This document shows positions 1,853 to 15,235 of a stretch of 24,002 nt of DNA, piece after piece. The position numbers were made by a program, and so were the translations under genes. The stretch lies in the IMG/VR virus record IMGVR_UViG_3300025771_000183, positions 1 to 24,002 of that record; one strand, given 5' to 3'. The notes below the pieces were generated by a model that was given only the letters and a program-made list of their open reading frames with translations, was not told where the DNA came from and made no database searches. The DNA comes from a virus. Numbering within the stretch: position 1 is the first letter of the stretch; each line of letters starts with the position of its first letter.

Positions 1853-1961
1853 CTTTTTTCTCCTTTTTCTTTTTGCCAAAGACCTTTTTCCAATTTGCAT
1901 CTAACTTCTTAGAGTCTTCAGGTCTACGTTTAGACCCTTTGCCACCATGCCACTTAGACAT
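1830..1961 (-). CDS. Small KGGKGSxxRP-type phage protein, 43 aa
   Basis: The 43-residue product begins MSKWHGGKGSKRRPEDSKKL, continues DANWKKVFGKK and ends in a lysine-rich tail. This matches a widespread family of tiny phage proteins with a glycine/lysine-rich start, an R-P pair and a final W-x-x-x-F-G-K motif. Their function is unknown; the charge suggests nucleic-acid binding. The start overlaps the end of the 164-residue gene by 8 bp. The AAAAGGAG inside its own 3' end serves as ribosome site for the next gene, which explains the 23-bp overlap. It is below normal ORF length limits and easily missed. Confidence 0.75.
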   Translation of the reverse strand: MSKWHGGKGSKRRPEDSKKLDANWKKVFGKKKKEKKDADKTKT

Positions 1962-2448
1962 AATCGACTCTTTGAAAATTGACCGATTTATCTAATTTGC
2001 TTAAAAGTTCTTTTGCTCTCATAAAATCATTGGGCAAACATCTTAATAATTCTTCTATACTGAATATCATAATATCTTTTTCATCTTTATGTATTAATTC
2101 TAATACAGGCTTATCATCATCAGTATCACATACCAAAGCAGTCTTTCTATCAAACGTAAAGCATTTTGCATTTGGTTGAATCATAATATATCCACTTTCT
2201 TCACATTTGATATTTAACTGCTCATAAGCTCTTATCATCATTTCAACCATAGCGATTTGCTTTTTAGGTGGATCATCTTGTAAAGATGTTTTTAGTATTT
2301 GCTCACCTTTAAGAAACTTAATCTCAAAATCAACACCCACCATTTTAAATATCCTTCTACGATTACCCCATTTAACTTTAGTCTCTAGCTCATAGATTCT
2401 TAGTTCTTTTAATTTATCTTTTAAAGATTCATTTAAATAAGTATTCAT
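1954..2448 (-). CDS. Hypothetical protein, 164 aa
   Basis: The start has AGGAG seven bases upstream. The sequence is mixed alpha/beta: a helix LKDKLKELRIYELETKVKWG, strands IFKMVGVDFEIKFLKG, a helix KQIAMVEMMIRAYEQLNI, strands YIMIQPNAKCFTFDRKTALV and an acidic turn DTDDDK, then a C-terminal helix IEELLRCLPNDFMRAKELLS. No catalytic motif or family is recognised. It is the first gene after the non-coding hairpin/CA region behind the primase-helicase, so it is probably an early protein. It overlaps the next small gene by 8 bp. Confidence 0.65.
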   Translation of the reverse strand: MNTYLNESLKDKLKELRIYELETKVKWGNRRRIFKMVGVDFEIKFLKGEQILKTSLQDDPPKKQIAMVEMMIRAYEQLNIKCEESGYIMIQPNAKCFTFDRKTALVCDTDDDKPVLELIHKDEKDIMIFSIEELLRCLPNDFMRAKELLSKLDKSVNFQRVDYV

Positions 2449-2574
2449 ATATTTATCTCCTTGTGCGTATACATTTAAGTGTGCATGTGTGTAGTCCTAC
2501 GGACTACTACACACACACACACTCAAATAATGTATCAATACACACACACACACTTGCACACACACTCGCACACT
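2449..2574. other. Non-coding island with CA/GT tracts; candidate replication origin or mRNA structure
   Basis: This 126-bp gap is unusual in an otherwise tightly packed operon. It holds CA tracts at about 2509-2522, 2540-2552 and 2556-2565, alternating purine/pyrimidine GT stretches on the left, and a long hairpin (listed separately). It lies directly behind the primase-helicase gene. The ribosome site of the 164-residue gene is at its left edge. The origin call is inference from position and structure. Confidence 0.4.
2479..2520. repeat. Long imperfect inverted repeat (hairpin)
   Basis: The core is perfect: GTAGTCC (2491-2497), loop TAC, GGACTAC (2501-2507). Outside a one-base bulge (T2508) the GT-rich left arm (2486-2490) pairs with the CA-rich right arm (2509-2513). 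After two mismatches, 2479-2483 pairs with 2516-2520. This gives about 17 base pairs in total. It is not followed by a T-run on either strand, so it does not look like an intrinsic terminator. Confidence 0.8.
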
Positions 2575-4551
2575 CTATTCATTATTTAACTCATAATCAT
2601 CATATAATCTAAACTCAGATAGTCTATAACCCTGCTTTCTTACAGTGTTTTTGTCTCTTTTAGCATGTATAACAACACCAGCTTTTTCTAATCTTTTAAA
2701 TGATCTATTGATAGCATCACGATTAATTTCATTACCACTAGTGTTATATACCGCTTGATGACCAAAATCATCTGCTGTAAACCATTCTTCTTCAGGTTTT
2801 GGCTTATCTTTTGCTAGAAAATACATAAGAGAAGATATCTTTTTATCTTCTGCTTCGTTTACCGCATCTTGTATATCATCATCAGAATCATCAAGATCAG
2901 TCTCAATTAATAATCCTGAAGTCACATTGAGACCCTCACCAATAACAGTCTCCTCATGGAAAATAAAGCTCTTGTCAGTCATTCCCATTCCATCTTTATT
3001 TTTGGTTTGTTTCATCTTGACAAACATTTGCTTCTCACCATCAACAGTATTATCTTTTCTCTCAACCATAAACTCACCATCAATAGAAGCATCAAGAACA
3101 GAACTACCTCTAGCTCTTCCTTTATTTCCTCTACCAGTATGATGAACAAGCAATACAGTACAATCAAAGTCATGAATCAACTGATCAGCAGCTTTGACAA
3201 ACTTATTAACCTCTTGAGCAGAATTTTCATCGCCTGAGAAATTTCTTTGAAACGTATCGAAGATAATTAAACCGATTTGCCCTACTTCTTTTTTAAGCAA
3301 GTTAATTTCAGTTTCTAGCTTCTCATACTCTTCTGCTTCATTAATCCTTGAACCTCTATTAGATAAAAATAAAGGTGCACCCTCTAAGCTACCACCATAT
3401 TTGCTTTGGTGGAATACAGCGAGCCTTCGCTTAATTCCACTCACTCCCTCCCCTGCAAGATAGACTACAGGTGCTTTTTTTGCTTCATGACCATAGAAAG
3501 GAGTTCCTTTTGCTACAGCACAAGCCATGGCTATCGCAATAAACGATTTGCCTGATTTGGGAGCACCGAATACTGTTATTAAACGATTACGTTCAAATAC
3601 CTCGGTTATAAGCCAATCAGGGTTCGTTACCTGCGATAGAACATAATCGGCTCTATCAAAACGTAAAGCACCCTTAGGTAGCTTAACTTTTTGTTTATCA
3701 ACAAAGCTAATAAATTCATCTGCTGATTTAAAATAACCCCTCTCATAAGCATCATAAAGATCATCCTTTTCATTAAAATCTTCAGGTGGCTGTATGATTC
3801 TAATATTTCTACAACCTTCTTTTCTTAGGTGTTCTGCTAATTGATCAGCACATTCCTTGCCTGCTTTATCATTATCAGGAAATATCCATACTTCTCTTTT
3901 TAATATAGGTTTCCAATCTGCCTTCTTCCAACTATTGACTCCACCATGCCAAGTACAAGAATCTAACTTATCTCCAATTATTGCCTCACAGCCTCTTAGA
4001 GCCTTCTCACCTTCATTTAACACAATAGGCTTCTTTGGGTACTTGTCTGTATAATAAATTGGCATAAGAGGGCTGTCAGGGCGTTTTAAGTCCCATAAAC
4101 CATTAGCATCTAATGTAAATGGTGCATATTTCTGTTTAATGGCATGACCTTCAGGGAATCTGAGAACCATAAAATTATCAGTATACTTAAGGCTAACGAT
4201 TGACTGTTTATACAAATCAATCATTTGCTCTCTAGTGAATGACCTAGCACTACTTGTGGCTTCAATTTTAGGGGGGTTGAAACCACTTAATAAGGAGTCA
4301 TTTGAATGTAGTGCTAAGTCATAACCAAACTGTTTTAAAACTGTGTTGACATCTTCATTAAGATGTTTAATTAAATCTATTACTCCCCCGCCGACTCCTT
4401 CTTCGTGATCGTAAAAAGTCCCCTCTGATAGATTAAGAGCCATAGACCCCTTATTACCCCATCTAAGCTCGTTAGATGAGGTTTTAGTGGGTTCTCCTAG
4501 TAGTTGCTTGGCAACGTCAGGTGCTATTCTTATCCAATCTATCTGTTGCAT
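2575..4551 (-). CDS. TOPRIM primase / RepA-type helicase
   Basis: A 658-residue replication protein. Residues about 1-75 resemble the N-terminal part of phage primase-helicases (SEGTFYDHEEGVGGGVIDLI) but show no zinc-finger cysteines. A TOPRIM domain follows with NEGEKA (179-184) and PDNDKAG (225-231), the acidic residues of primase metal binding. A RecA-fold ATPase of the RepA/AAA_25 type has Walker A GAPKSGKS (329-336), Walker B LIIFD (428-432) and LLVHHTGRGNKGRARGSS (467-484). The C-terminal 90 residues (DAINRSFKRLEKAGVVIHAK) look like a winged helix. It probably primes and unwinds DNA at the phage fork. The start overlaps the stop of the SSB-like gene (TGATG), implying coupling. A non-coding hairpin region lies just downstream. 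Confidence 0.88.
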   Translation of the reverse strand: MQQIDWIRIAPDVAKQLLGEPTKTSSNELRWGNKGSMALNLSEGTFYDHEEGVGGGVIDLIKHLNEDVNTVLKQFGYDLALHSNDSLLSGFNPPKIEATSSARSFTREQMIDLYKQSIVSLKYTDNFMVLRFPEGHAIKQKYAPFTLDANGLWDLKRPDSPLMPIYYTDKYPKKPIVLNEGEKALRGCEAIIGDKLDSCTWHGGVNSWKKADWKPILKREVWIFPDNDKAGKECADQLAEHLRKEGCRNIRIIQPPEDFNEKDDLYDAYERGYFKSADEFISFVDKQKVKLPKGALRFDRADYVLSQVTNPDWLITEVFERNRLITVFGAPKSGKSFIAIAMACAVAKGTPFYGHEAKKAPVVYLAGEGVSGIKRRLAVFHQSKYGGSLEGAPLFLSNRGSRINEAEEYEKLETEINLLKKEVGQIGLIIFDTFQRNFSGDENSAQEVNKFVKAADQLIHDFDCTVLLVHHTGRGNKGRARGSSVLDASIDGEFMVERKDNTVDGEKQMFVKMKQTKNKDGMGMTDKSFIFHEETVIGEGLNVTSGLLIETDLDDSDDDIQDAVNEAEDKKISSLMYFLAKDKPKPEEEWFTADDFGHQAVYNTSGNEINRDAINRSFKRLEKAGVVIHAKRDKNTVRKQGYRLSEFRLYDDYELNNE

Positions 4552-5165
4552 CAGAATGGAATATCATCATCAGATAATTCATTCTTATCAACCATCTCCT
4601 GAACTTTATCAGCAAGACCATCATTAGGACTCTTAAATGTGTCCGCAACAGCATCATCATCCTTGTCATAAAATGCTGGTATATCAAAGTTAGCAAATCT
4701 AGGTGCAAACTTAGAAAACTCAAAAGATAATTCTGATGACCTTCCTATCCCAACCTGTATTTCTTTTGAGCCTTTATACTCAACTACAGGTAAGGAATCA
4801 CTATTTGCATCCATTTGATTCCAAAAGCTACTTAGTATCTTATTAAAGGCACTTGATTCAGCAAAAGTGAATCTACTCCAAATAAGTGCATGGTCATGTC
4901 CATGTGGCATAACACAGCAACTAAATGCTCTTTTCCAATCATCAGAAGGTTTAGGGCTTGCTTCTCCAAACTTAGCATCCCATTGATACTGATACTCACC
5001 AGCATACCTACCCCAACCACTTTTAAATGTTGCAGGGTCTAACTGCAAGTATTTAAAATCGATTGCTGTTTGCCCATTAACAAAAAATTGTTGATCGGCT
5101 GTTTTAAAAGCAAGATAAACTTGCTGACTATCGCTGGAATTTCTCATTCCGCCTAATATATCCAT
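4551..5165 (-). CDS. Putative single-stranded DNA-binding protein with SSB-type acidic tip
   Basis: The 204-residue protein ends in ELSDDDIPF, the acidic tip by which bacterial SSBs recruit partner proteins. The N-terminal 150 residues hold many aromatics (YLAFKTADQQFFVNGQ, GWGRYAGEYQYQWDAKFG, ALIWSRFTF) as expected for a strand-rich, DNA-binding fold, but I do not recognise a canonical OB-fold SSB. An acidic linker (DKDDDAVAD) precedes the tip. The gene has a strong ribosome site (AGGAG, 6-base spacer) and is coupled to the primase-helicase gene, which fits a replication or recombination role. It could instead be a single-strand annealing protein working with the RecE-like exonuclease, for which no RecT/Erf is seen here. 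Confidence 0.6.
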   Translation of the reverse strand: MDILGGMRNSSDSQQVYLAFKTADQQFFVNGQTAIDFKYLQLDPATFKSGWGRYAGEYQYQWDAKFGEASPKPSDDWKRAFSCCVMPHGHDHALIWSRFTFAESSAFNKILSSFWNQMDANSDSLPVVEYKGSKEIQVGIGRSSELSFEFSKFAPRFANFDIPAFYDKDDDAVADTFKSPNDGLADKVQEMVDKNELSDDDIPF

Positions 5166-10510: not shown

Positions 10511-13500
10511 TTATGAATCCGTGTAATACACAAAATTGACATCTATATCTGTTGTATTTGTGAAATTAGCATTTGTAACAGTGCTATTACCAGTGCCCGT
10601 AAAACCATTTTTATATAAACGAGCATATGCATTACCAGCAGCCAAATATAAATTAACTGGAACACCTGCTGTACTTAATCCTTGTCTATCACCTATGGGT
10701 TGAAAAGCACCAAATGCTTGTTGATTTATAGTAAATGGAAGTCCATTTATATCAGCAATACCAGCAGCAGTTCCTTTGCTACTTAAACTACAATGACATG
10801 AAACATATACAGCACTTCCTATTTTTACATATTTTCCATTTTGTACATTATGGGTAATGCCTGTTGAACTTTGACCAAAAGTAATGCTTGGAGTCCAAGT
10901 ACCTTCTTCATAATCTTCAAGTTTGTTTCCTGCTGCTGTTCCGCCTAGATAAGCACCACCTGAAAGATATAGGTCTTTCCATTTACTTGTTGGACTTCCT
11001 AAACCAACAACCCCCGTATCAGCAGCAGCAGGTTCAAAATTGTCTTTGTATGCTTGAACTGTTCGCCTAGTAGTGTTGTCGTTATTTCCAAACTCTAGCT
11101 TTATTGCTGCTCCTGCTGTTTCAGGAACATTAATTTGTAGACTTCCTGTATTTGTACCCAAAATCATATTATTAACAGACGAAGCACCTGCATTAGAACC
11201 AAAACCTAATACACCTTTTGCTGTATTATTATTTCTAAATTGTAAGTAGCCACCACTTGCTGAAGAACCATCAAAAACAGCAATAGCAGCACTATCACTA
11301 TCTACTGTAAATGTAGCTGAACCAAGAGGTGATGTACCACCAACAATAACAGCACCAGTTGACGTTATTCTCATATGCTCATTTTGTGAGCCTTGATCTT
11401 GTCTAGTTTTAAATACTAAAGCACCACCATATTCATTATGAGTTGCTGTTTCTTTACTAGCTTCTATAGAAGCAAAAGCTGTTGTACTACCACCTGTTTG
11501 ATAAACACCACTAAAATTAATTGCACCACCAACACCAGCAGCTAAAGATGTTGTATCAGTTACAGATATATTATTTGTTGGTATTCCTGCTACTAATTGT
11601 TTTTCAAAATTTAAGTCCAGTTTACTATTTAAAGTTGTAGTTCCACTTTCTGTAATATTGAATAAAACATTAGTGTTAGCTGCAGTATCTTGATTATGTC
11701 CTATAGTAAATGCTTCTGCTGTACCATCATTATTAGAATCAATATTTATTCTTAATGCATTAGGTGAATTAATTACAAAGTTTTGACTTGTTGGGCAAGT
11801 AAAGCCACTAGCAGCAATAGTCATACTATTAACTGTTCCTGTTACACCTAAATTAGAACCATCATAAGTAAGACCACTTTCAGCTTCTAAAGTATCAGCA
11901 GTATCACTACCTGTAATAACTCTGTTGTTAGCATTATTGTTAATAGTTGTTCCAGTACCAGTAGCATCTTCCCAAGCAATGCCACTTCCTGTAGAGGTAA
12001 GAACTTGACCATCAGTACCTTGTGAACCTGCAACTGTAAGATTATCAAGTTCAACTGTACCAGTTACGTCTATGCCTGAAGAGGTTGTGGCTAGTCTTGT
12101 AGAATTATTATGCCTTAACAATATTGGCTGGTCAGCATTAGTTGTAATCTGAAAGTTAGTGCCACCATAAAATATTCTTGCATCAAAGTCATCATTAAAA
12201 GGAGTTTTAAAATCTACATATCCACCACTTGCACCACCTAATTCAATATTTCCATAGCCTGTAGCATCATTAACATTAATAGTAGTATCAACTATCAAAG
12301 TTCCTGTAATATCTACTCCAGTGCTACTTGTAGCTAATTTTTCTGTATTATCATAATAAAGTTTTACCCAACCATCACTATTATTACCTACTACGAAATT
12401 TTTTGTTCCATCATTATTTTGTAGTAATAATTGATTACTTCCTCTTATATGCAAATTACCTGTTCCAACTTCATCTATATAACTATTAGAACCATCATGA
12501 TAAATCTGTAAATCATTACTAACACCAAACTTTAATCTATCATCAGTAGCACTAGAACTATCTCCAAACCGAATCATATTACCATTAGATGCTAAATCAC
12601 CACCTAATTGTGGAGTTGTATCTTCTACAACATTGTTAATAGAAACAGCTTGTACTCTTGCATCAGTGTAATAAAGGTTAGAGCCTTCACTAAGGTCTGA
12701 GGTAGATTTAGTTCCCAATCTAGTATCAAATCTTGCATCGGTATAATAAAGGTTGGTGCCTTCAGATAAATCTGATGTTGAGAAAGATGATAAAGATACT
12801 GTTGCATCTATTGCACCATCACCAGCATCATCATAAACAAATGAAATACCAGTATGTGAGCCATTCGTTACAAACTGACCAGCTACAACATCTTGTACTC
12901 TTTCGGTAGTATGATATAAATTTGTCCCTTCAGATAAATCAGATGTAGACTTAGAACTTAAATCTAAATTAGCTCCTGTTTGTAAATTAACCCTTGCATC
13001 TGCTCTATTATTTGTGTAATAAATATTTGTAGAACCTTCTGCAATATCATCTGAGTCAAGAACAACTGCTCCTGTTTGTGTATTAACACTAGTTACTGGT
13101 GAAGTACCAGCAGTAAAACTAATAACACCAGTGGTGCTATTGTAAGCAATATCTCCACTTGCAGAAATAGAAGTTCTTGCTCTTCCAGTTGTAAAATATT
13201 GGTTTGTTGATCCTTCTGAAATGTCATCTGTATCTAAAACAACAACACCAGTTTGAGTATTTACACTTGTTACTGGCGTACCAGCACTAAAACTAATAAC
13301 ACCAGTTGTGCTATTGTAAGAAATATCACCTGTTGCAGAAATAGCAGCTCTTGCTCTTGCATCTGTATAATAAAGGTTGGTATTTTCAGTTAGGTTTGCA
13401 GTCGTAAAATTAGATATATCTGATACTTGTCCAGTTACATTACCTGTAACATTACCTTCAACATTAACAACCAAAGTACCAAGTGAATTAAGTGTTATAT

Positions 13501-15235
13501 TTCCTGTTGAAGTACCATCTGCTGTAGTAAGACCCATTGTAAATTTATCAGCAGACTCATCCCACATAAAGATACCATTATCTTGATTACCTCTATTTAT
13601 AAGCATACCTGAATCATTTACAGGACTACCTGTTAATCCTGCATTAAGCTGGAATAAGTTATCTTCTATATCTAGGTTTGTTGTATCAAGAGATGTAAGA
13701 GTTCCATTAACAGTAAGATTACCTGCAACTGTTAAGCTGTCTGCAATCTGAACATCATCAGGTAGTGTTAGTGTTATGTCTGCAGACTCACTACCACTTC
13801 CTGACACTGTAATCTTATTAGCAGTTCCTGTAATTGTTTGAACATAGTTACCTGTTGTATCAGTTCCTAATGCAACAGAATTAGCACTAACGCTTGTTGC
13901 TTGTATTCCTAATGCATCAACAAATGATTTAGTAACTCTAGCATCAATAGCTGAATTTGCTCTTGTATCTGTATAGTATAAATTTGTGTTTTCAGTTAAA
14001 TCAGCAGTTGTTTTATTACCAAATGCAGAATCAAATCTTGTCGTTGTGTAATATAAATTTGTGCCTTCTGATAAATCGCTTGTTGATTTAGCTGTAAATG
14101 CAGAATCAAATCTAGCTTGCGTATAATATAAGTTTGTATTCTCAACAACTATAGAAGTATCAAGTGTTGATGTAACCGCTTGATTAGAGCCATTACCTAT
14201 AAATATCTTGCCATTATCTAAGTTAGGAGTAGCGTTGCTTCTTCCAGCACCACCTACTTTAATAGAACCATTAACAGCATGACTTCTTAATACTTTACCT
14301 ATGTTTTGTATTTGTGCTGATTCTCCACTTGGAGCTGTAGTTGTATATTCACCTGCTGTTGTAGATACATAAAGTATTTCACCAACTGATTCATTAGAAG
14401 TATCAATAGATGTTAAATTACCAAAAGTAACTATTTGTAGATTGTTATTAGCATTAGCATCTTCTATTGCCATACCAAATGCAGGCATTTTAGAAGCATC
14501 ATCAGCCTTTGCTTTACCTACTGTAGTTGTATTTCCTGAAACACCTGACACATAAACAACATCACCTTTAGATAATGCTACATCTGCTTTTGCTGTAAAT
14601 CTAACAGCACCATCAATATCACCAACAAATTCATCTGTTGCAGTAATTAAATTAAAAGTAACATCATCAGTTGTAGCTACAGCTTGTCCTATAGCAATAC
14701 TAGGAGTAGAACCTTCACCAGTTCCACCTGTTACTGTTACACCAGTTCCACCTGACATAGATTCAACATAATCACCAGTTGTATCAGTTCCTAAAGTAAT
14801 AGAATTAATTTGCACAACTGTATCTATATCAACATTAGCACTACCATCAAAAGATACTGATCCCACAACATCACCTGATAAAGATATAGTTCTAGCTGTA
14901 CTTAGGGTATCAGCAGAATCAGCATTACCTGTTAAGTCTCCAGTTACATTACCAGTAACATTACCTGTTAAGTTACCAGTGACATCACCTGTCAAATTGC
15001 CTGTAAATGTATTAGATGCAGTAATACTAACACCTGTAGTAACCCAAGCATTATCAGCAGCGTTTCTAATCTTTAATACACTGCTTGATGTATCTACCCA
15101 TAATTGATGGGCAAATGTAGTTGATGGTTCTGTTGCTCCACTGTTTGTAGTTGCAATAGCAGATAAAGCATTGTTTAAATCTGCTCTAAAGTTTGCACCT
15201 GTTTGGTTTGCTATGTTGTAATCGTGTTGTGCCAT
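10511..15235 (-). CDS. Repetitive tail fibre protein, 1574 aa
   Basis: The largest gene in the window. The N-terminus (QTGANFRADLNNALSAIATT, then HQLWVDTSSSVLKIRNAADN) is a typical phage fibre head domain that anchors to the tail. Residues 80-103 are six tetrapeptides of type [ND][LV]TG. Residues 365-862 hold nine copies of a [ST]-D-L-[ST]-E-G-T-N-L-Y-Y-T-x-x-R element, some 24 residues apart. Later parts contain beta-strand repeats (NLHIRGSNQLLLQNNDGTKN) and a Ser/Gly/Asn-rich shaft. The C-terminal ~130 residues (EEGTWTPSITFGQSSTGITH onward) look like a receptor-binding tip. It probably forms a trimeric fibre that sets host range. The ribosome site is weak (AAGAGA). The trimeric state and the tip role are inference. 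Confidence 0.85.
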   Translation of the reverse strand: MAQHDYNIANQTGANFRADLNNALSAIATTNSGATEPSTTFAHQLWVDTSSSVLKIRNAADNAWVTTGVSITASNTFTGNLTGDVTGNLTGNVTGNVTGDLTGNADSADTLSTARTISLSGDVVGSVSFDGSANVDIDTVVQINSITLGTDTTGDYVESMSGGTGVTVTGGTGEGSTPSIAIGQAVATTDDVTFNLITATDEFVGDIDGAVRFTAKADVALSKGDVVYVSGVSGNTTTVGKAKADDASKMPAFGMAIEDANANNNLQIVTFGNLTSIDTSNESVGEILYVSTTAGEYTTTAPSGESAQIQNIGKVLRSHAVNGSIKVGGAGRSNATPNLDNGKIFIGNGSNQAVTSTLDTSIVVENTNLYYTQARFDSAFTAKSTSDLSEGTNLYYTTTRFDSAFGNKTTADLTENTNLYYTDTRANSAIDARVTKSFVDALGIQATSVSANSVALGTDTTGNYVQTITGTANKITVSGSGSESADITLTLPDDVQIADSLTVAGNLTVNGTLTSLDTTNLDIEDNLFQLNAGLTGSPVNDSGMLINRGNQDNGIFMWDESADKFTMGLTTADGTSTGNITLNSLGTLVVNVEGNVTGNVTGQVSDISNFTTANLTENTNLYYTDARARAAISATGDISYNSTTGVISFSAGTPVTSVNTQTGVVVLDTDDISEGSTNQYFTTGRARTSISASGDIAYNSTTGVISFTAGTSPVTSVNTQTGAVVLDSDDIAEGSTNIYYTNNRADARVNLQTGANLDLSSKSTSDLSEGTNLYHTTERVQDVVAGQFVTNGSHTGISFVYDDAGDGAIDATVSLSSFSTSDLSEGTNLYYTDARFDTRLGTKSTSDLSEGSNLYYTDARVQAVSINNVVEDTTPQLGGDLASNGNMIRFGDSSSATDDRLKFGVSNDLQIYHDGSNSYIDEVGTGNLHIRGSNQLLLQNNDGTKNFVVGNNSDGWVKLYYDNTEKLATSSTGVDITGTLIVDTTINVNDATGYGNIELGGASGGYVDFKTPFNDDFDARIFYGGTNFQITTNADQPILLRHNNSTRLATTSSGIDVTGTVELDNLTVAGSQGTDGQVLTSTGSGIAWEDATGTGTTINNNANNRVITGSDTADTLEAESGLTYDGSNLGVTGTVNSMTIAASGFTCPTSQNFVINSPNALRINIDSNNDGTAEAFTIGHNQDTAANTNVLFNITESGTTTLNSKLDLNFEKQLVAGIPTNNISVTDTTSLAAGVGGAINFSGVYQTGGSTTAFASIEASKETATHNEYGGALVFKTRQDQGSQNEHMRITSTGAVIVGGTSPLGSATFTVDSDSAAIAVFDGSSASGGYLQFRNNNTAKGVLGFGSNAGASSVNNMILGTNTGSLQINVPETAGAAIKLEFGNNDNTTRRTVQAYKDNFEPAAADTGVVGLGSPTSKWKDLYLSGGAYLGGTAAGNKLEDYEEGTWTPSITFGQSSTGITHNVQNGKYVKIGSAVYVSCHCSLSSKGTAAGIADINGLPFTINQQAFGAFQPIGDRQGLSTAGVPVNLYLAAGNAYARLYKNGFTGTGNSTVTNANFTNTTDIDVNFVYYTDS
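12650..14143 (-). repeat. Nine dispersed N-L-Y-Y-T repeats in the tail fibre gene
   Basis: Copies fall at about residues 365, 387, 411, 613, 671, 729, 765, 821 and 845 of the fibre. Most read SEGTNLYYT or TENTNLYYT followed by x-A-R; two are diverged (NQYFT, NIYYT) and one has NLYHT. Closely spaced pairs are about 24 residues apart, giving DNA repeats able to recombine. Confidence 0.85.
12989..13342 (-). repeat. Tandem duplication of about 58-59 codons in the tail fibre gene
   Basis: Residues 632-689 and 690-749 are near copies: each has I-S-A-[TS]-G-D-I-[SA]-Y-N-S-T-T-G-V-I-S-F, then PVTSVNTQTG, then VVLD, and ends in a D-D-I-[SA]-E-G-S-T-N repeat. The second copy has one extra residue (TSPV versus TPV). 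It is a recent segmental duplication by the look of the DNA. Confidence 0.85.
14927..14998 (-). repeat. 12-bp tandem repeat encoding [ND][LV]TG
   Basis: Six consecutive tetrapeptides (NLTG DVTG NLTG NVTG NVTG) plus DLTG at fibre residues 80-103 come from 12-bp imperfect tandem repeats. A shorter relic, NVTGNVTG, recurs at about residues 594-602. Such repeats can change copy number by slippage and alter fibre length. Confidence 0.8.

Follow-up and report, generated by a model that had tools for sequence, protein, structure and literature searches.

The gap downstream of the primase-helicase gene

At 33% G+C, the 24,002-nt stretch of viral DNA analyzed here (the window) represents a 24-kb piece of the genome of a tailed phage with low G+C content. 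The minus strand encodes its early genes, which follow one another as exonuclease, Dam methylase, RusA-like nuclease, SSB-like protein, primase-helicase, 164-aa ORF and small ORFs. The primase-helicase, which matches the Pfam families AAA_25 and Toprim_2, is followed by a gap at 2449–2574. This gap fills exactly the interval from the stop of the primase-helicase gene (2575) to the start codon of the next gene (2448), and the minus strand encodes both. Is this gap the place where replication of the phage starts? A sequence-only reading had put forward a candidate origin here from a hairpin and CA/GT tracts, and the comparative evidence described below (a conserved stem, a conserved architecture and a linked exchange of repeats and protein domain) supports that proposal. 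The features discussed are as follows.

1954–2448, minus strand: 164-aa ORF downstream of the element; a conserved neighbor whose sequence does not follow the iteron type
2449–2574, minus strand: the whole element (candidate origin), from the primase-helicase stop to the next start; minus-strand order iterons, spacer, hairpin, ribosome-binding site
2469–2535, minus strand: bulged hairpin of 27 pairs with the apex GTAGTCC-GTA-GGACTAC; an iteron and its inverse lie within the arms
2506–2510, minus strand: conserved bulge of 3 nt that interrupts the 5′ arm (coding strand) directly beneath the apical stem; register ambiguous within GTAGTAG
2524–2538, minus strand: short AT-richer spacer, minus-strand TTGATACATTATTTG, overlapping the outer stem in part
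2539–2574, minus strand: GT-rich direct repeats of degenerate sequence (iterons); in relatives the consensus is AAGTGTGTA, with typical spacing of 8 and 12 bp
2575–4551, minus strand: primase-helicase gene with a Toprim primase part, a RepA-like AAA_25 helicase part and a C-terminal domain
2578–2910, minus strand: C-terminal domain of the primase-helicase (residues 548–658), proposed iteron binder with a predicted winged-helix-like topology
4551–5165, minus strand: 204-aa protein with an SSB-like acidic C-terminus, which does not track the iteron type

The hairpin with a GTAGTCC/GGACTAC core and the three CA tracts that had been described in the gap are real features, because the free energy of the hairpin is better than that of 200 of 200 dinucleotide shuffles (z = −4.08 as RNA and −4.05 as DNA) and GTGTGTG is concentrated in the gap, with 10 of the 11 copies in the window falling within 2510–2565 (1.8 expected). 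The CA tracts are located at approximately 2509–2522, 2540–2553 and 2557–2564. The stem itself had been reported too small: rather than 17 bp at 2479–2520, it comprises 27 bulged pairs. Its arms (2473–2495 and 2506–2528) are 87% complementary, and an outer stem, ATACAT/ATGTAT, extends the hairpin to 2469–2535. One 3-nt bulge is found a few base pairs below the loop and another 3-nt bulge further out. A short AT-rich stretch, ATTATTT (approximately 2524–2531), is present between the repeats and the hairpin, and the earlier remark that no AT-rich unwinding run is obvious is to that extent too strict, but the genome itself has a background of ~67% AT. An AT-richer spacer is also visible in the repeat types inspected in relatives, and from its position the spacer at 2524–2538 is a possible opening site.

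The cumulative GC skew, suggested earlier as a check, follows the coding strand with no informative inflection at the gap, and neither supports nor refutes an origin. An Rfam search of the element gave no match. A scan of 2449–2574 for an intrinsic terminator (a GC-rich stem followed by a T run) found none, and a promoter scan found no convincing promoter inside the element.

Conservation of the hairpin and the repeats

The element is present at the same place in 26 close relatives, and a search with the apex pattern was used to reach more distant phages. In the relatives reached in this way, the hairpin core GTGTGTAGTAGTCCGTAGGACTACACA is nearly invariant, while the primase-helicase is only 54–61% identical. 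The stem is more strictly conserved than the flanking proteins; a stem lost where the genes are kept had been named as the outcome that would refute an origin, and this outcome was not observed. The same relatives carry clean tandem copies of AAGTGTGTA, typically 8 or 12 bp apart, and in a 35-kb relative all six copies of AAGTGTGT fall inside the element. The CA/GT tracts of the window can be recognized from these relatives as drifted copies of the direct repeats, and the earlier remark that no iterons are obvious does not hold in this comparison. The apex pattern occurred in 65 contigs, of which ten (L034, L043, L046, L056, L058, L066, L073, L075, L081 and L087) were discarded as chance palindromes in unrelated sequence.

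A single architecture, consisting of 3–5 direct repeats, an AT-richer spacer and a hairpin, was observed 3′ of the primase-helicase gene in approximately 140 distinct loci (the best 80 per scan of the 386–431 available). The repeat sequences of these loci fall into nine types. At the place occupied by CA/GT tracts in the window, sister phages carry GGAAGTTT, TCGGAAG, CAGGGAA, GAGGGAAGTTT, TTTGGTTTGG, GAGTTAGTTT, CAAGGAAT/CGGAAT or CTCTGCCA. The CA/GT tracts thus represent one of several sequence variants of an iteron array, and their capacity to form Z-DNA or to slip, which the sequence-only reading had mentioned, is not the point. The tracts in the window phage are indeed simple dinucleotide runs, as a microsatellite generated by chance or slippage with an incidental hairpin would be, but the nearly invariant core in phages with such divergent proteins and the non-microsatellite repeats that other types have in the same architecture refute this explanation, and its probability is practically nil.

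Hairpins were found in all types; wherever a type was inspected, a copy of the repeat and an inverted copy make up part of the arms. The stems at the apex vary yet stay complementary (for example, GTAGTCC/GGACTAC, AAGTAT/ATACTT, GAAGTCC/GGACTTC and AAATATC/GATATTT). Of 36 distinct hairpin cores, which cover the nine types, 34 have their first asymmetric interruption below the loop on the 5′ arm (coding strand); cores of one type are related, and the 36 do not count as independent cases. Such a constant asymmetry is unexpected for a symmetric duplex operator and suggests recognition of a folded single strand, either DNA or RNA.

In MW202475, a relative with a complete genome, no element is visible downstream of the primase-helicase gene. 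In the divergent relatives L042, L069 and L062, the 164-aa ORF after the hairpin has no obvious Shine-Dalgarno sequence, unlike that of the window. The 65,678-base viral contig IMGVR_UViG_3300050343_000089 contains two related but different primase-helicase/origin loci (L286 and L288), separated by ~34 kb. It looks like a fusion of two genomes, either a chimeric assembly or tandem related phages.

The C-terminal domain of the primase-helicase and the repeats

A change of the repeats is accompanied by a change in the family of the primase-helicase C-terminal domain. Types II and IV have similar repeats, and L187 straddles both; a type-free 5-mer measure was preferred for repeat similarity. In pairwise comparisons of 140 loci, repeat similarity correlated with the identity of the C-terminal domain (rank correlation 0.80, partial 0.72); the locus pairs are not phylogenetically independent and the correlations carry no tree correction, with the other proteins serving as internal controls. 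The corresponding values were 0.20 (partial 0.12) for the N-terminal primase part, 0.50 (partial 0.02) for the helicase part, 0.15 (partial −0.11) for the downstream ORF and, with 125 loci, 0.10 (partial 0.03) for the SSB-like protein.

Individual pairs of loci point in the same direction. L117 and L137 share ~0.9 identity through the primase and helicase parts and 0.30–0.37 in the C-terminal domain, and their repeats differ (TCGGAAG and CAGGGAA, respectively). L196 and L233 are 0.97–1.0 identical over 240 residues and then divergent through the helicase, the C-terminal domain and the repeats (GGAAGT and GGTTTTTGG), and are similar again in the downstream ORF (0.88 identical). In L112 and L154, the downstream ORF is 0.99 identical, and both the C-terminal domain and the repeats differ. 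The cultured Roseobacter phages CRP-823 and CRP-831 have helicases that are 0.95–1.0 identical, a downstream ORF that is 0.95–1.0 identical over most of its length and a common hairpin apex, versus 0.60–0.81 identity in the C-terminal domain and different repeats (TTTGTAGT and TTTATAC). CRP-823 and CRP-811 have the C-terminal domain and the element in common and different N-terminal parts. As read from these alignments, natural recombinants swap the C-terminal domain and the repeats together.

Two other candidates for the repeat binder were rejected. The correlation and the recombinants speak against the 164-aa ORF, and the failure to track the repeat type speaks against the SSB-like protein; neither protein follows the repeats, and therefore neither is likely to set the specificity. 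In the roseophage relatives, a ssDNA-binding protein is annotated at the position of the 204-aa protein of the window. The 164-aa ORF is kept in nearly all relatives, yet has no Pfam or PHROG match.

Structure prediction for two C-terminal domains with barely alignable sequences gave a shared helix-strand-helix-helix-strand-strand order (pLDDT 82 and 88), an order typical of a winged helix. A Pfam search of the C-terminal domain gave weak winged-helix hints with no significant match, and the best matches in a Foldseek search against PDB structures were mostly winged-helix proteins (including LexA for the second domain), none of them statistically significant; the designation “winged helix” therefore refers to the predicted topology. 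From this topology together with the co-exchange with the repeats we infer that the domain binds DNA, and the C-terminal domain of the primase-helicase is the likely iteron binder.

Repeats bound by a winged-helix domain are typical of operators too, and many initiators bind iterons for autoregulation. The gap might accordingly be an operator array, at which a nearby promoter is repressed or activated by the primase-helicase or by some other regulator, with no part in the start of replication. The site is, however, downstream of the gene of its presumed binder and not at the promoter of that gene, the promoter scan described above found nothing convincing inside the element, and the conserved bulged hairpin would be left unexplained. 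We regard an operator as quite improbable.

The element in cultured relatives and beside inserted genes

The same layout is present 3′ of the primase-helicase gene in the Roseobacter phages CRP-406, CRP-811, CRP-823 and CRP-831, and also in the Alteromonas phages XX1924 and PB15, the Idiomarina phage 1N2-2, the Salicola phage CGphi29 and the complete genome MW202867. A blastn search of the region against cultured phages gave no match, and these phages were reached only by comparison of proteins and architecture. FoX2 and Mano, which are related only in the primase half, have no such element. The gap upstream of the primase gene in CRP-406 contains an ordinary terminator-like hairpin that was set aside as distinct from this element. 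An annotated hypothetical ORF of the same phage, CRP406_2 (L093:4131–4457, PV211008.1), overlaps the repeats and hairpin of the CRP-406 candidate origin; either this ORF as a whole or the start assigned to it may be an artefact of annotation.

In 11 loci, a gene is inserted between the primase-helicase gene and the element (apparently a methyltransferase where readable), and three other loci (L072/L111, L162 and L182) have an insertion on the opposite side, separating the element from the 164-aa ORF. All of these loci retain the element, which argues against a leader dedicated to one neighbor. In L182, the repeat array seems to have been absorbed into the primase-helicase frame (C-terminal tail ...NREVTGKNEGSINEKS); the hairpin comes after it, and the repeats seem to have been kept although they turned coding.

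These insertions bear on the possibility that the gap acts at the RNA level, as an element in the polycistronic mRNA that controls translation, processing or antitermination and is perhaps bound by the primase-helicase. Its location inside a co-directional and probably co-transcribed string of genes, 20–40 nt before a start codon, would suit such a role, the hairpin folds well as RNA, and the constant strand of the repeats and the bulge fits RNA too. An RNA element is nevertheless unlikely: the features of the gap are retained when other genes are inserted before or after it, its type does not follow the downstream ORF, it has neither a U-tract terminator nor an Rfam match, and its repeats track a winged-helix-like, that is, DNA-binding, domain.

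Comparison with known origins

In SaPI Rep and SCCmec Cch2, it is a C-terminal domain that binds iterons, and these follow immediately after the gene for the protein (PMC7581432). The present system resembles them in that iterons lie immediately 3′ of an initiator-helicase gene, inverted repeats accompany the direct repeats, and the specificity seems, by comparison, to reside in the C-terminal domain. Several direct repeats of one short sequence beside the initiator gene, the mark of an iteron origin, were found most clearly in the relatives and in degenerate form in the window. The helicases of SaPI Rep and Cch2 are of the DUF927 or D5 type, and the primases are AEP-type or unrelated, whereas a RecA-fold AAA_25 (RepA-like) helicase is fused to a Toprim primase here, and unlike in those systems the hairpin is strictly conserved and bulged. 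The Pfam matches AAA_25 and Toprim_2 leave no helicase of the DUF927 or D5/Primase_Cterm family in this protein.

The helicase of phage P4 belongs to SF3, a superfamily other than that of the helicase here. P4 alpha binds the repeats of its origin with a winged helix (PMC4234260); a Toprim primase, a helicase and a winged helix (predicted in the present protein) are combined in one polypeptide in both systems, and both have direct repeats. PMC4234260 describes no bulged hairpin downstream of the P4 gene, in contrast to the present locus. The replication of plasmid pRN1 depends on a stem-loop just downstream of its primase-helicase gene, and this stem-loop can be moved in cis; a stem-loop origin of this ORF904 type has also been proposed for phage BIP-1 (PMC4234260). 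A conserved stem-loop 3′ of a gene for a primase, a helicase and a predicted winged helix is likewise found here. pRN1 differs in having no iterons, an archaeo-eukaryotic primase, an SF3 helicase and a stem-loop of ~100 nt with a large loop; the combination of an AEP primase-polymerase with an SF3 helicase is absent from the present protein. At oriV of RSF1010, RepC binds the iterons, RepA is the helicase and RepB′ primes at the ssiA and ssiB hairpins (PMC4234260). The RepA-type helicase and the iterons and hairpin in cis are shared with the present locus, whereas RSF1010 uses three separate proteins and two hairpins in place of one protein and one conserved, strand-asymmetric hairpin. By its helicase family, the present system belongs to neither the SaPI/Cch2 nor the pRN1 family, although it appears to work like their origins.

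Cis-acting DNA sites of another kind (a rolling-circle nick site, a recombination or attachment site, or a packaging site) were also considered. Stem-loops with iterons mark rolling-circle origins in other viruses. The genes examined include neither an integrase nor an HUH replication protein, the 35-kb relative has its terminase gene ~6 kb or more away, and the partner linked to the element is the C-terminal domain of the primase-helicase; such a site is very improbable.

Proposed function of the element

We consider it highly probable, from the sequence comparison, that the 126-bp gap at 2449–2574 is a replication origin bound by the C-terminal domain of the phage's own primase-helicase. The evidence for such an origin lies in the conserved architecture, the linked exchange of the repeats and the C-terminal domain, the conservation of base pairing in the hairpin and the constant strand of the bulge. 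Binding, opening, loading, priming and the direction of replication would follow a scheme inferred from these features. The primase-helicase made from the upstream gene would bind the GT-rich direct repeats through its C-terminal winged-helix-like domain. The RepA-type helicase would then be assembled on the locally opened AT-rich spacer and the hairpin, and synthesis would be started by the enzyme's own primase before a host or phage polymerase takes over. As the origin opens, the bulged hairpin, which combines a repeat with an inverted copy, is probably extruded on one strand, and the folded hairpin would mark the place and direction of enzyme loading or priming.

A broader proposal can be made only tentatively, and we hold it to be rather less likely than its contrary: that these widespread marine phages use a self-contained origin code. 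One polypeptide would do the work of RepA, RepB′ and RepC of RSF1010, its exchangeable C-terminal domain would read the iterons, the strand-specific bulged hairpin extruded at the opened origin would position helicase loading or the first primer, and specificity cassettes (C-terminal domain, iterons and hairpin arms) would be swapped by recombination. The swapping of cassettes would perhaps allow escape from cross-recognition by co-infecting phages or satellites.

If the identification of the origin is right, both the origin and the initiator of a widespread marine family can be predicted, and the protein–DNA pairing exists in nine or more natural versions, cultured representatives included. 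The placement of an origin directly after the gene of its initiator helicase, a design known for SF3, D5 and DUF927 helicases, would be extended to RepA-type Toprim primase-helicases. The natural swaps would also offer ready material for studying how winged-helix domains select their binding sites.

Phage family and other observations

The phage family was approached through the 35-kb relative G001 rather than the window itself. Its TerL is 48–51% and its capsid protein 44–53% identical to those of CRP roseophages, which lead both match lists, and its terminase and capsid are closest to those of CRP-822-type roseophages. The low-G+C subgroup V of the CRP-822-type family consists of predicted SAR86 phages (PMC12629253). 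The text of PMC12629253 contains no iterons, repeats, primase or replication origin, its single match to “origin” being unrelated; the wider literature was covered less than exhaustively. A related locus, L151, is located on a 72.7-kb SAR86 genome contig (CACEDS010000004.1, SAR86 isolate AG-390-L11), which fits SAR86 as the host of this phage group. The window would presumably belong to subgroup V with a SAR86 host.

Two further genes were noted. The 35-kb relative carries an ArdA antirestriction gene (L090:1374–1907; Pfam PF07275, E = 2.7e-16) in a block of plus-strand genes, and the window contains a 1574-aa tail-fibre-like ORF at 10511–15235 with many repeats of a motif like SDLSEGTNLYYTDAR.
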